A model generated the notes under the pieces. That model saw nothing but the letters and a program-made list of their open reading frames with translations. It was not told where the DNA came from and searched no databases. From Branchiostoma lanceolatum (Eukaryota; Chordata; Leptocardii; Amphioxiformes; Branchiostomatidae): 64,000 nt of DNA. Positions 45,515 to 55,878 of this stretch are shown here, piece after piece. The position numbers were made by a program, and so were the translations under genes. Numbering within the stretch: the stretch's first letter is position 1; each line of letters begins with the position of its first letter. The stretch is from positions 7,321,501-7,385,500 of the forward strand of contig NC_089727.1 in the NCBI RefSeq assembly GCF_035083965.1, read 5' to 3'.

Positions 45515-47257
45515 ATGGGCAACGCCTTTGGATACCTGAAATGGCTGCAGAACAGCAACCAGACGTTCGCACCTGATCGTAAAGAAGATTTCGTGGAGAC
45601 GAACATCGGTTTTCCGTGTCGTGTGGTGACCGGGAACAAGGCCGTGCAGTCCGTCTTTGACATCGACCTCTTCAGAGAGGAGGAATTCTACTTTGGCTTA
45701 GTAGAAGTCCGGAGGGACTTTACGGAGGGTGTCTGTCCAAGCATCGTGTCCAACGGAAAGATTCACGAGAAAAACAAGGCGCTGATGATGGGGGTCATCG
45801 CCGGGGCTTACAAAGAGATCCCGACATCAACAGCAGACGCCATGCTGTCCAACATCGCCGACTGGGGAAGTAGACCAACCGACTTCGAATCAAAATTAAT
45901 GGCAGTGGTAGGGGATGCTCTCCTCCCCACCATCTTTGGGAGATCAACACATTTCAATGCTGAAAACATCCGCCTCTATATCAAATCTTCGACTGAATTA
46001 AGGTCTGGTATCTTGGCAGCATTGACGAGCGGGGATGTTACCGAGGGGCTCCAGGCAATGACGTCTATCCTCGGGAAAATAAAGGCATCAGAGAGGTAGG
46101 TGATGAGGACTAACCGTTCAACATTGTCTATGTGAGATCTTTTTTTCTATCCGATTTTGTTCAGTCATTGTAGTAAACAATAAGTAAGACACCTATATTC
46201 AATACCTGTATCATCTCTTTTGTGTTCAAAGATACCGCCAGCTGATGGATCTGGGCAAATCACACGGATTGGGAGAGGCATACACAACGGTTCAACTGCT
46301 CTTTATGATAACATTCAACGCAGTTGCCGGCATGGCAGGGAACCTGATCGCATCCTTCGCACGCTTGGACACCATCAGCGTGGCAGACAGGGAGGAGCTA
46401 CGGGAGGAAGCGCTTGCCGCCCTGAGAAAACATGGAAGCCTGACTCGTGAGGCCCTGGAGGAAATGCCGAAGATTGAGAGCTTCGTCTTGGAAGTTCTGC
46501 GAGCCTGTCCAAGCCCAGATTTCTGGAGCACCATTGCGACACGCCCAACAACTGTCAAGTACACAACAGAGAGTGGTCCACAGGAGGTTGAGGTGAGTAG
46601 CGAAGAAAAGTTCATAAGAATAAGGAATACGTATTCATGCACGTGTGTTCGCGCGCGCATACACACACACACACAGACATGCGGACACACACAGACAAAC
46701 ATACACACATATATGCGCTCGCGCGTACACATACACATGCGGACATACACACAATGTGCAAAGTAGCCAAAGGGTGAAAACTAGACTTTTGGCCATTGCT
46801 TTGTTATTTGGCTCATCCATCGTCAATGTACATTTCGCATTTTCCTTATTTCCAGATTGAAGAGGGTGAACGTGTGTATGCCAGTTCCTACTGGGCGCTG
46901 AGGGATCCTGCTGTTTTCGACAAACCAGACGACTTCGTGTGGCGGAGGTTTCTCGGCCCTGAGGGTGAAGCTCGCAGGAAACACCATGTCATCTTTCACG
47001 GCCGACTCACCGATACACCCGCGGTCAGCAACCACATGTGTCCGGGTAGAGACGTCGCGTTGTCGGTGCTGAAAGGCAGCATCGCCATTCTCAACACGTT
47101 CTTCGGATGGCAACTCCAGGAGCCGCCGGTGTGGACGGGAACTAAGGTAGCTCGTCTTGGGCAGCCTGACAACGAAGTGAAAGTCAAGTCATTCTGGCTG
47201 CAACATCCCGACGACTTGAAAGACGTTTTTCCATCTGACTTTCAAGACATTCTTGAC
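45515..47257 (+). other. CYP440A1: P450 (CYP74-clan) half of the fusion
   Basis: Exons 1-3 encode residues 1-448. The heme-binding loop is 'SNHMCPGRD' with the Cys ligand at residue 376, matching the CYP74 pattern N-x2-C-[AP]-G-[KR]-D. The K-helix ExxR is present as EVLR. The I-helix reads 'TFNAVAGM', with the Asn that CYP74 enzymes use in place of the usual oxygen-activating acid/Thr pair, so it should not need O2 or a reductase. There is no N-terminal membrane anchor. From memory, amphioxus CYP440A1 belongs to this clan and has been described as an allene oxide or epoxyalcohol synthase. The symbol is by family likeness. Product specificity cannot be read from sequence alone. Confidence 0.72.
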
Positions 47258-53200: not shown

Positions 53201-55878
53201 GAGCCAAAAATATACTTTTTTGTAAAAAAAAAGTATCCAAAAATCTTAAAACAAATCATTTTGAAGCCATTTATGCTAAAGTGGGAATTAATTCCTGGGA
53301 GCATATATCCTACGAATCCCAGGTTTCAGGTCATTTGGTTTAAAAACGTTAAAAAAATTAGAGGAGCCAAAACGTGTTTTTTTCTAAAACGGCCCAAAAT
53401 TGAAATATTAGCCGATTCAGAGTATGCTGAAAGTGTAGTTGAAGTCCTATTGACAAAATTCAGATAATTCTGTTGCAATATGGTACCTGTGGTATGGAGT
53501 GAAACATAATAACGTTGTACATATTTTAGTGGATGGAACTGATAAAATCCATGTATAGATAAACAGTGAAAACTGAATCTCCATTTCTTTAACAGACTGA
53601 AGACATGGCGAATGGACGTGGACGGAACGCTTCCGGAAGACCTGAAGAAGCGAGGCGTGAGTACTGCCATCCGAAATGTGCCGTGTATTTCAATCCCATT
53701 CCATCACAGGTACCTGACGATGTTGATGACCAATTTCGTCACATTAGAAATTCTTTGTGGCATTAAAGGGCTGTGCTTGTAAAGATTACAGTGTTTTAAC
53801 TCTAACTACTAATTTGGTTGCTTCGAATACCATTACAGTGTAACAAAAGGGTGAAAATGTAAGAATTGTACAATATGTATCCTTTCTGTCTCAATTCAGG
53901 TTGATGACGCGGAGGCCCTCCCAAAGTACTACTACAGGGACGACGCGATGCCAACATACAACGCCATCAACGAATATGTATCGGGAGTGGTAGAGATATT
54001 CTATGGCAACGCTGGTAGGTCTAGAAAACACTGCATACCCATAGTTGGGAGGTTGAAATAATCCTCAACTTTGCGTATGTACATTATCCCGAGAGTACTT
54101 AGAGCATAATTACAAACATTTGCCTGCCTCATCTTCTCATGCCAAACCCGCCAATTGAATGTTTCAAGTAACGACCTCCACGTACCGGTCTAAGTTCCGT
54201 GCTTGTCATTGTGTTATCGCTGACCAGCTGTCAGCCAATCACATGCCCCCTCCTATTGTTCTAGGGAAAGTTGCCAGCCAACCACGTTGCCTCTTGACCG
54301 TAGACGGTGACGTAGTTGGCTGGTGACGGCTGGCCATATCAAAACAGTGGACCTGGCATGAGTGGGCCTTTCATAGGGTCGCAAAACTAAGAAAGGTTGA
54401 CACTCATAATGTTTCCTGTAGGTAATTCCACAAAACTACATGAAGACTACGAGATCCAGGCATTTGCGGAGGCTCTTGTTTCTACAGAGGGTGGGAAAAC
54501 TGCGATCAAGGTGTGATACCCAAAGATTTACATTGATGGATTTTAGGACTGTCGCTGTGTAACAATACTCTTGAATTGATTCATAAGATCGTCCATCTCG
54601 ACTAGGCTTCCATCATATTCAAATATTGCCCCAAAAAGTGTAAGTTGATACTGAAAAAACATCAATTTAAATCCCAAGCCAATTACTGTTTGCCGTAAAG
54701 CTTTAGAATCAGCAAGTTGTGCTTACTACCTCCATGCAAACGGAGGTATTGTTTTCGGTTTGTTTGTCTTGGTGTTTGTCAGGTTTGTTCCCACTGGCTC
54801 GGGTCCAAGTCTGTTCTCTGTCTAAGTTATAACCGGAAATTGTAACCAGGGACTGGCAGGATGCAAAGATTGAGCTGGCCTACGTCCAAGTTTCTGTCAG
54901 GAAGTTAACGTTGGCCACATGGCCAAAAGTCAGGAACCCGCAAGTGCAGGGCATGTAATTTGTGGAATGGACATGGTTGTGCGATATTTTGTCAATAAAT
55001 TTACCTTAACTCTATATATTTCACGGAGGTATGAGATCTTCGATTTCTTGTATCATGAATTATTGATTATCACCTTTCTGTCCCAGGGAGTTCCGGGAAA
55101 CGGAAAGTTCTCCACCCTTGATGAGCTGATCCAGACCCTCACCTGCATCATCTTCACCAGTAGCGTGCAGCACGCAGCCGTCAACTTCATGCAGTTCGAC
55201 CAGTACGGCTTTGTACCCAACATGCCACTCATACTGGTCAAGGATCCACCCAAATCTAAGGTTTCCTACCATTTCATTCACTCTCTACTATATCTTATGG
55301 CTCTAAGATCTAGATTGCTTGGCAACATGCTCTTTTATAACTATTTTATCGTTTGAACTTACCGCTTTTTTAGGATCTTGCATGCAGATGAGTCTACATA
55401 CTTACTTCCTATTTGATAAATGATAGATAATATGTTGACATCATTGTTCCTCCTCATCAATCAAAATGTAAGCGTCCATTGACGGAGCAGGACGTCCTAG
55501 ATGCACTTCCGTCAAAGGAGAGCGCCGTTAGAATCAACACTCTCGCGGTGATCCTCAGCGAAGTGGCGACACAGCCGCTGGGTGACTTTGAGGTCGACTA
55601 CCTTCGGGGAGATGAGGTTGACCAAGTCATCTTAAAGTAAGTCAATTTTTATGTATTTTGATTCCTATCATATCTGCATTTTCAGCCTTGAAAGTTTTCA
55701 AGAATTTTGTCGTTTCTGCGAAATGAAAGAGCATCCGATTTCCCATCCCATTTGAACCAGGTTTCAGCAAGAACTGGGCCGCATCTCGAAAGTCGTCAAG
55801 TATAAAAACAAGAAGCACCGCTTCCAGCCGTACGACTACCTGGACCCCCAAAACATCCCCAACGCCATCAGCATCTAG
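45515..55878 (+). CDS. CYP74-clan P450 fused to animal lipoxygenase
   Basis: Twenty exons: 45515-46095, 46232-46592, 46856-47257, 47557-47744, 48376-48545, 48730-48866, 49097-49141, 49618-49740, 49865-49962, 50184-50319, 50600-50698, 51252-51348, 51719-51836, 52167-52259, 53596-53656, 53900-54014, 54422-54510, 55087-55260, 55473-55636, 55761-55878. All are GT-AG and in phase. They total 3369 bases, or 1122 residues, without internal stop. Residues 1-448 are a CYP74-type P450. Residues 449-1122 (674) are a PLAT domain plus lipoxygenase, the same length as human 5-LOX. The lipoxygenase should make a fatty acid hydroperoxide that the P450 converts to an allene oxide or epoxyalcohol. The start ATG follows an acceptor at 45501-45503, so a 5' UTR exon lies upstream. 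The N-terminus MGNAFG may be myristoylated. Two separate genes are unlikely: exon 3 ends in a clean donor in phase with exon 4, and no stop, polyadenylation signal or new start lies between. Confidence 0.9.
46655..46755. repeat. (ac)n-rich stretch
   Basis: Interrupted 'acacac' and 'acatac' tracts in intron 2 of the fusion gene. Open frames on both strands here translate only the repeat. Confidence 0.8.
47830..48070. mobile_element. Intronic MITE family, copy 1
   Basis: Shares 'gcaatgaccctg', 'taccggcctg', 'ttagcgctgg', 'ccaatcaga', 'cacgttgcctc' and 'ttggctggtgacggctgg' with stretches near 51010 and 54165. 'gtcaaccaatca' and 'attggctggtgac' form internal inverted repeats. Lies in intron 4 of the fusion gene. 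Confidence 0.6.
49996..50058. repeat. (gt)n microsatellite
   Basis: About 30 uninterrupted 'gt' units in intron 9 of the fusion gene, starting some 35 bases after the donor of exon 9. Confidence 0.95.
51010..51215. mobile_element. Intronic MITE family, copy 2 (inner part inverted)
   Basis: Begins with 'gcaatgaccctgg' and 'gaaccggcctgcgat', as copy 1 does. 'cagctgtcaccagccagt' comes before 'caacgtgattggctgata', which is the reverse of the order in copies 1 and 3. The inner segment is therefore inverted relative to the outer. In intron 11 of the fusion gene, ending close to exon 12. Confidence 0.6.
52780..53420. repeat. Dispersed repeat, copy 2
   Basis: Same landmark order as 1390-2070: 'caaatacagcatatttcac', 'tggactcttcca' and 'tttcaggtcatttgg' (twice here). 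It fills much of the long intron 14 of the fusion gene. The open frames at 53095-53670 arise from it. Confidence 0.6.
54165..54350. mobile_element. Intronic MITE family, copy 3
   Basis: 'acgtaccggtct', 'cgctgaccagctgtcagcc', 'caaccacgttgcctc' and 'ttggctggtgacggctgg' match copies 1 and 2. Inverted repeat between 'gctgaccagctgtcagccaa' and 'ttggctggtgacggctgg'. In intron 16 of the fusion gene. Confidence 0.6.

Follow-up and report, generated by a model that had tools for sequence, protein, structure and literature searches.

Does one lancelet gene encode both the enzyme that makes a fatty acid hydroperoxide and the enzyme that converts it? The question is raised by positions 45515-55878 of a 64,000-nucleotide stretch of Branchiostoma lanceolatum DNA (GCF_035083965.1, contig NC_089727.1, positions 7,321,501 to 7,385,500), here called the window. 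On its forward (+) strand, to which all gene coordinates below refer, exons for a cytochrome P450 (P450) are followed by exons for a PLAT domain and a lipoxygenase (LOX). We consider it probable that together they encode a two-step oxylipin synthase in a single chain, with the PLAT-LOX feeding a P450 of the CYP74 clan.

Gene model

The gene was rebuilt exon by exon. It runs from a start codon at 45515 to a TAG stop at 55876-55878, with 20 exons, 19 GT-AG introns of 124-1336 bp and 1122 codons closed by one terminal stop. A preliminary description of the locus had given the same start, stop, P450/LOX junction (47257/47557), exon count and protein length, all of which were recovered exactly. Exon ends were placed by hand so as to hold frame and homology, and the single frame is therefore partly by construction; that each of the 19 needed introns begins with GT and ends with AG is not.

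The predicted protein consists of a CYP74-clan P450 (amino acids (aa) 1-448) followed by PLAT and LOX domains (aa 449-1122). Pfam matches on the spliced protein exceed the curated cut-offs for p450 (38.6 bits, cut-off 22.8), PLAT (66.2, cut-off 23) and Lipoxygenase (216, cut-off 23.6). These are the only families listed at E up to 0.001, and no catalase family is among them. The two halves have similar GC content at third codon positions (0.616 for the P450, 0.61 for the LOX).

A mis-assembled or decaying locus that merely looks open is highly improbable. The window contains no N letters, hence no assembly gap at the exon 3-4 junction; the catalytic residues are kept, and no internal stop interrupts the 1122 codons. 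In a tblastn search of the window (E up to 1), the spliced protein recovers each of its exons once and in place, and neither half occurs a second time. Such a reading could draw on a few weak splice sites, in introns 7, 11, 12 and 18. When each site is scored with a leave-one-out matrix built from the gene's other introns, the donors of introns 12 (-4.8) and 18 (-2.4) and the acceptors of introns 7 (-2.0), 11 (-0.4) and 18 (-9.2) are low. Homology to coral enzymes carries on across these sites.

The P450 half

Three exons encode the P450. Exon 1 (45515-46095, aa 1-194) opens with an ATG that has A at -3 and G at +4. Exon 2 (46232-46592, aa 194-314) carries the I-helix Asn223 (46317-46319), within ITFNAVAG, and the E281xxR284 motif. 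Exon 3 (46856-47257, aa 315-448) carries the heme ligand Cys376 (47039-47041) and a C-terminal tail that ends at a strong donor.

The P450 was compared with solved structures only, and six Protein Data Bank (PDB) sequences matched at E up to 0.001. The nearest are CYP74A allene oxide synthases (AOS), at 1.1e-17 (Arabidopsis AtAOS), 1.3e-17 and 5.8e-17. The next P450, at 9.6e-5, is 7-alpha-hydroxycholestenone 12-alpha-hydroxylase, which is not a CYP74. The CYP74-type insertion before the heme Cys aligns gap-free to AtAOS (SNGPETETPTVGNKQCAG). With CYP74A sequences closest and the insertion, the I-helix Asn and the heme Cys all present, the assignment of the N-terminal half to the CYP74 clan is supported, as the preliminary description had proposed; one motif that departs from the type is weighed below.

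The I-helix Asn bears the residue number, 223, that is also given for the Asn of B. belcheri CYP440A18 (PMC8124189); this agreement supports a start at 45515.

The LOX half

Exon 4 (47557-47744, aa 449-511) starts the PLAT domain and exon 5 (48376-48545) holds the remainder of its Pfam match. Exon 6 (48730-48866) lies between PLAT and the Pfam lipoxygenase match, which, after exon 7 (49097-49141), starts at aa 663 in exon 8 (49618-49740). Exons 9 (49865-49962), 10 (50184-50319) and 11 (50600-50698) precede a set of residues that we take to be the iron ligands: His811 in exon 12 (51252-51348), whose HLGFTH motif runs on into exon 13 (51719-51836) with His816; His1000 and Asn1004 in exon 18 (55087-55260); and the C-terminal Ile1122 in exon 20 (55761-55878), directly before the stop. 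Between them lie exons 14 (52167-52259), 15 (53596-53656), 16 (53900-54014) and 17 (54422-54510), and exon 19 (55473-55636) follows a weak acceptor.

Among solved structures, the best matches are coral AOS-LOX (8.6e-94 and 4.1e-93) and 11R-LOX (3.1e-92), then 5-lipoxygenase (4.9e-81). His811, His816, His1000 and Asn1004 align with their counterparts in coral AOS-LOX and 11R-LOX. Ile1122 aligns with the terminal Ile of 11R-LOX; the AOS-LOX alignments end one residue earlier. The preliminary description had proposed a PLAT-LOX with its ligands in place, and the Pfam scores, the five putative iron ligands and the heme Cys of the P450 half bear this out.

Exon 14 has Ala854 where the coral 8R and 11R lipoxygenases carry Gly. 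We take this to be the Gly/Ala position that governs R versus S oxygenation, and because Ala replaces Gly here our guess is that the hydroperoxide would be S-configured. Since PMC5793058 puts the value of sequence for predicting LOX specificity near zero, we claim no position of oxygenation.

The junction between the halves

Whether the halves form one protein turns on intron 3 (47258-47556), which is of phase 0 and, at 299 bp, of ordinary length for this gene. The exon 3 donor (GAC|GTAAGT) scores 8.4 bits, a score equalled or beaten by 29 of the 3920 GT sites in the window. The exon 4 acceptor, which follows CTACAG, scores 8.5 bits, the highest among the gene's 19; 44 of 3526 AG sites in the window reach this level. 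Both sides of the join are in phase 0, and the P450 exons thus continue into the PLAT-LOX exons in a single frame without internal stop, in agreement with the preliminary description. Exon 3 extends about 20 residues past the P450 core, as judged by eye against the AtAOS C-terminus; the computed alignment ends earlier. If 100 bases are allowed for a donor of this quality and 30 bases for an acceptor of this quality, distances of our own choosing, the two would coincide with a matching phase at a rough probability of 0.045 x 0.021 x 1/3, or about 3 in 10,000.

The alternative is two adjacent genes, with the P450 ending in intron 3 and the LOX beginning at Met450 from a promoter within that intron. 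We judge this unlikely. It would leave a strong donor and the acceptor that scores best in the gene idle or in use elsewhere, and a 3' end, a promoter and a 5' untranslated region would all have to fit into 299 bp. The parts that two genes would need can nonetheless be pointed to. If the exon 3 donor went unused, translation would continue with VSFQQANEF to a stop at 47285 and yield a P450 of 457 aa. Exon 4 opens GGA ATG GAT; its second codon (47560-47562) is Met450, which has a G at both -3 and +4 and lies 12 residues ahead of the Pfam PLAT match. The earlier claim that no new start lies between the halves is thus incorrect. About 140 bases upstream, at 47414-47425, intron 3 contains a TATA-like run, TATATATAAATA, with TATAWAWR matches at 47414, 47416 and 47418. 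It may be an internal promoter or chance: 21 such matches occur on this strand in 64 kb, so that about 0.1 is expected per 299 bp. It counts against two genes that transcription from this element would meet six ATGs between a point 30 bases past it and Met450. Three of these are in the Met450 frame, of which 47449 and 47455 are cut off by a stop and 47545 is open into Met450.

In vertebrate lipoxygenase genes the start codon sits in the first exon, whose end falls at a point in PLAT close to the end of exon 4 here. Given this layout, Met450 looks to have been where a lipoxygenase gene originally began. It may be retained from before a fusion, or it may still initiate translation. The second option leads to a further reading, in which the fused mRNA is accompanied by a shorter LOX-only or P450-only mRNA through an internal promoter, an alternative first exon or intron retention. 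The strong splice join together with the ATG and the TATA-like element would suit it, but the latter two have other possible readings, the ATG as a leftover from the LOX gene as it was before fusion and the TATA-like run as a chance match; we regard coexisting transcripts as distinctly unlikely.

Polyadenylation signals help little in choosing. Intron 3 contains no AATAAA or ATTAAA, only the weaker variants TATAAA (twice) and AATATA (once), so the earlier observation that no polyadenylation signal separates the halves stands for these two hexamers. It carries little weight: neither hexamer occurs from the gene's own stop to 57000 (1.1 kb), and the next AATAAA on the strand is at 57512. A 3' end within intron 3 is thus possible without AATAAA, as the gene's known end has none. 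We therefore rejected the missing signal as an argument for fusion, which slightly lowers confidence in the fusion and slightly raises that in two genes.

Several of these points weigh against a fused chain. The ATG at 47560 in good context and the TATA-like element fit a separate LOX start. The 457-aa read-through product is close in length to the free CYP440A18 (458 aa), which is annotated, described and expressed as a stand-alone P450 with five exons (PMC8124189). The lack of AATAAA and ATTAAA in intron 3 is weak support for a fusion, since the gene's own 3' side lacks both too. Phase agreement alone would have a 1-in-3 chance if both splice sites were real and served other exons, so that frame alone is no proof of one protein. 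In the P450 half, PSP stands in place of the PPV motif that is named as typical of CYP74 (PMC8124189), a single motif set against a good fit elsewhere. Taken together, the sequence favours a spliced fusion without proving one protein.

Comparison with known systems

The closest parallels in design are the soft-coral cAOS-LOX and cHPL-LOX fusions (for example Plexaura homomalla, 3dy5; Capnella imbricata). They likewise join an N-terminal heme enzyme that converts hydroperoxides to a C-terminal PLAT-LOX, and coral AOS-LOX is the best sequence match of the lancelet LOX half. In the coral proteins two consecutive reactions are carried out by one chain, and the heme half is related to catalase (PMC5617202), whereas the lancelet heme half is a P450. 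As read from the exons, the lancelet protein would follow the bifunctional plan of the corals, with a CYP74-clan P450 as the new partner. The Gly of coral 8R-LOX at the position of Ala854 is a further difference.

Fungi also combine a dioxygenase with a P450. We know of no CYP74 among the P450 partners of these fungal fusions. In LDS, DOX-AOS and DOX-EAS, dioxygenase and hydroperoxide-converting P450 share a single chain (PMC13049297, PMC11719350, PMC10813956), and in place of a lipoxygenase they carry a cyclooxygenase-type heme dioxygenase (PMC13049297, PMC11719350). The preliminary description had called the lancelet fusion a third solution beside those of plants and corals, which undercounts, since the fungal enzymes likewise unite a dioxygenase and a P450 in one polypeptide.

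Plant CYP74 enzymes (AtAOS, 2rch), which work with a separate 13-LOX, share with the lancelet P450 half the heme-region insertion and the I-helix Asn; the reaction pair predicted for the lancelet protein is also theirs. Arabidopsis LOX and AOS are separate proteins with no covalent fusion; a comparable result is reached there by a strongly channelling complex of LOX2, AOS and AOC2 (PMC6627107).

Within lancelets, CYP440A18 (BbEAS/AOS) resembles the present P450 in its CYP74 clan, its I-helix Asn 223 and its length (458 aa, compared with 448 to the junction). The likeness is drawn by clan, length and residue number for CYP440A18, and by clan for CYP440A1 (BfEAS). CYP440A18 converts 9-, 13- and 15-hydroperoxides, with kcat of 164-432 per second for the four C18 ones, and yields 79-98% epoxyalcohols with allene oxide products minor (PMC8124189). 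The excerpted text of PMC8124189 mentions no lipoxygenase domain for CYP440A18, and mentions LOX fusions for the catalase type only. It also reports that CYP440A18 matches BfEAS (CYP440A1) at 76% query coverage (PMC8124189). If all 458 aa were aligned, BfEAS would have about 600 aa, beyond the length of a P450; this is arithmetic only and serves as a lead.

Among the matches listed in the literature searched, we found no P450-LOX fusion, and direct wordings of it matched nothing. Nor is one mentioned in the excerpts of PMC8124189, PMC10813956, PMC5617202, PMC11719350, PMC5793058, PMC13049297, PMC9320521, PMC10864609 and PMC6627107. We are evenly divided on whether the locus represents a previously undescribed natural fusion in a chordate, in which an S-lipoxygenase feeds a CYP74-clan epoxyalcohol/allene oxide synthase within one chain and which evolved separately from the catalase-type fusions of corals and the heme-dioxygenase fusions of fungi.

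Proposed function and significance

If the halves are made as one chain, the C-terminal PLAT-LOX would bind a membrane and, by oxygenating a polyunsaturated fatty acid, form a hydroperoxide that is probably S-configured. The N-terminal P450 would then rearrange this hydroperoxide in a step that would need neither O2 nor a reductase; as with CYP440A18, epoxyalcohol would be the main product and allene oxide a lesser one. Covalent joining could raise the local hydroperoxide concentration or hand the hydroperoxide on. Such a gene probably arose by loss of a P450 stop codon and splicing of the last P450 exon onto the exon that opened the coding region of an adjacent lipoxygenase, with Met450 as the surviving ATG of the latter.

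A transcript of this form would place lancelets among the animals that fuse the making of a hydroperoxide with its conversion, with a plant-type P450 as the partner. The protein would be a natural single-chain counterpart of the plant LOX-AOS step, and would hint at the enzyme that supplies the substrate of lancelet epoxyalcohol synthases. Channelling of hydroperoxide from LOX to CYP74 would become testable within one recombinant protein. The locus would also be a clear example of domains joined by convergent evolution, and Met450, at the seam, could be a fossil of the former start codon.

Bacterial relatives

Bacterial LOX relatives were collected from genome contigs with the help of a LOX alignment of five rows. 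Of the 429 loci related to it, the best 80 were taken, which with five of eight plasmid loci made a sample of 85. None of the 87 LOX frames in these loci is a P450-LOX fusion, in a sample that had no positive control and in which catalase-LOX fusions were not looked for. Only one LOX frame, L005 (Burkholderia, 1345 aa), exceeds 741 aa, so only this one could also hold a P450. Pfam shows an amine-oxidase-type domain and no P450 in it. The gene itself (649-4626 of the locus, on a Burkholderia stagnalis plasmid, 1325 aa) combines an amine-oxidase-type flavoprotein with a C-terminal lipoxygenase domain.

P450 neighbours were sought by phmmer with the lancelet P450 and by one heme motif, which sets a minimum count. 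At least 8 of the 85 loci have a P450-like frame near the LOX (L033, L047, L051, L053, L054, L079, L082 and L085), and Pfam confirms a P450 in all four that were tested (L033, L051, L079 and L085). In the sampled loci, P450-like frames thus occur as neighbours of lipoxygenases, and none is fused to one.

Three cyanobacterial P450s without the usual FxxGxRxC lie downstream of LOX genes (L033, 11560-12900; L079, 8256-9614; L085, 2985-4343), at distances of about 0.4 kb in L079 and L085 and 3.9 kb in L033. They match the lancelet P450 weakly (2.9e-10, 2.4e-5 and 3.7e-5, respectively, in a set of 1342 frames) and possibly represent a bacterial LOX-P450 pair. The best PDB match of the L033 P450 is an ordinary P450 (8.8e-6), with no CYP74 listed. 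In L051 (7702-9051) and L082 (4476-5951), P450-like stop-to-stop frames lie about 50 bases or less from a same-strand LOX match; Pfam was run on L051 only.

Single-sequence searches with the lancelet halves gave less. The P450 half has no match in plasmids at E 0.01, and the LOX half, searched against genome contigs, returned 18 pattern-matching stretches with no relatives among them. Against plasmids, the LOX half matched eight records, seven of them annotated as lipoxygenase family and one as an FAD-dependent oxidoreductase.

Other features of the window

Nine other frames in the window were scanned. Seven are without a match, and the adjoining coding stretches include a RING finger and a ZIP zinc transporter (38994-39512 and 61956-62972, respectively). 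Introns 4, 11 and 16 of the gene have short strings in common (47837-48006, 51026-51077 and 54235-54333), perhaps as copies of one mobile element. The strings are unaligned pattern matches; four of the five patterns each connect two introns, and the fifth, CCAATCA, is common. A 22-bp tandem repeat in five copies (55860-55969) overlaps the gene end. Through it, the codons of NAISI*, which include the C-terminal Ile and the stop, recur into the 3' side.

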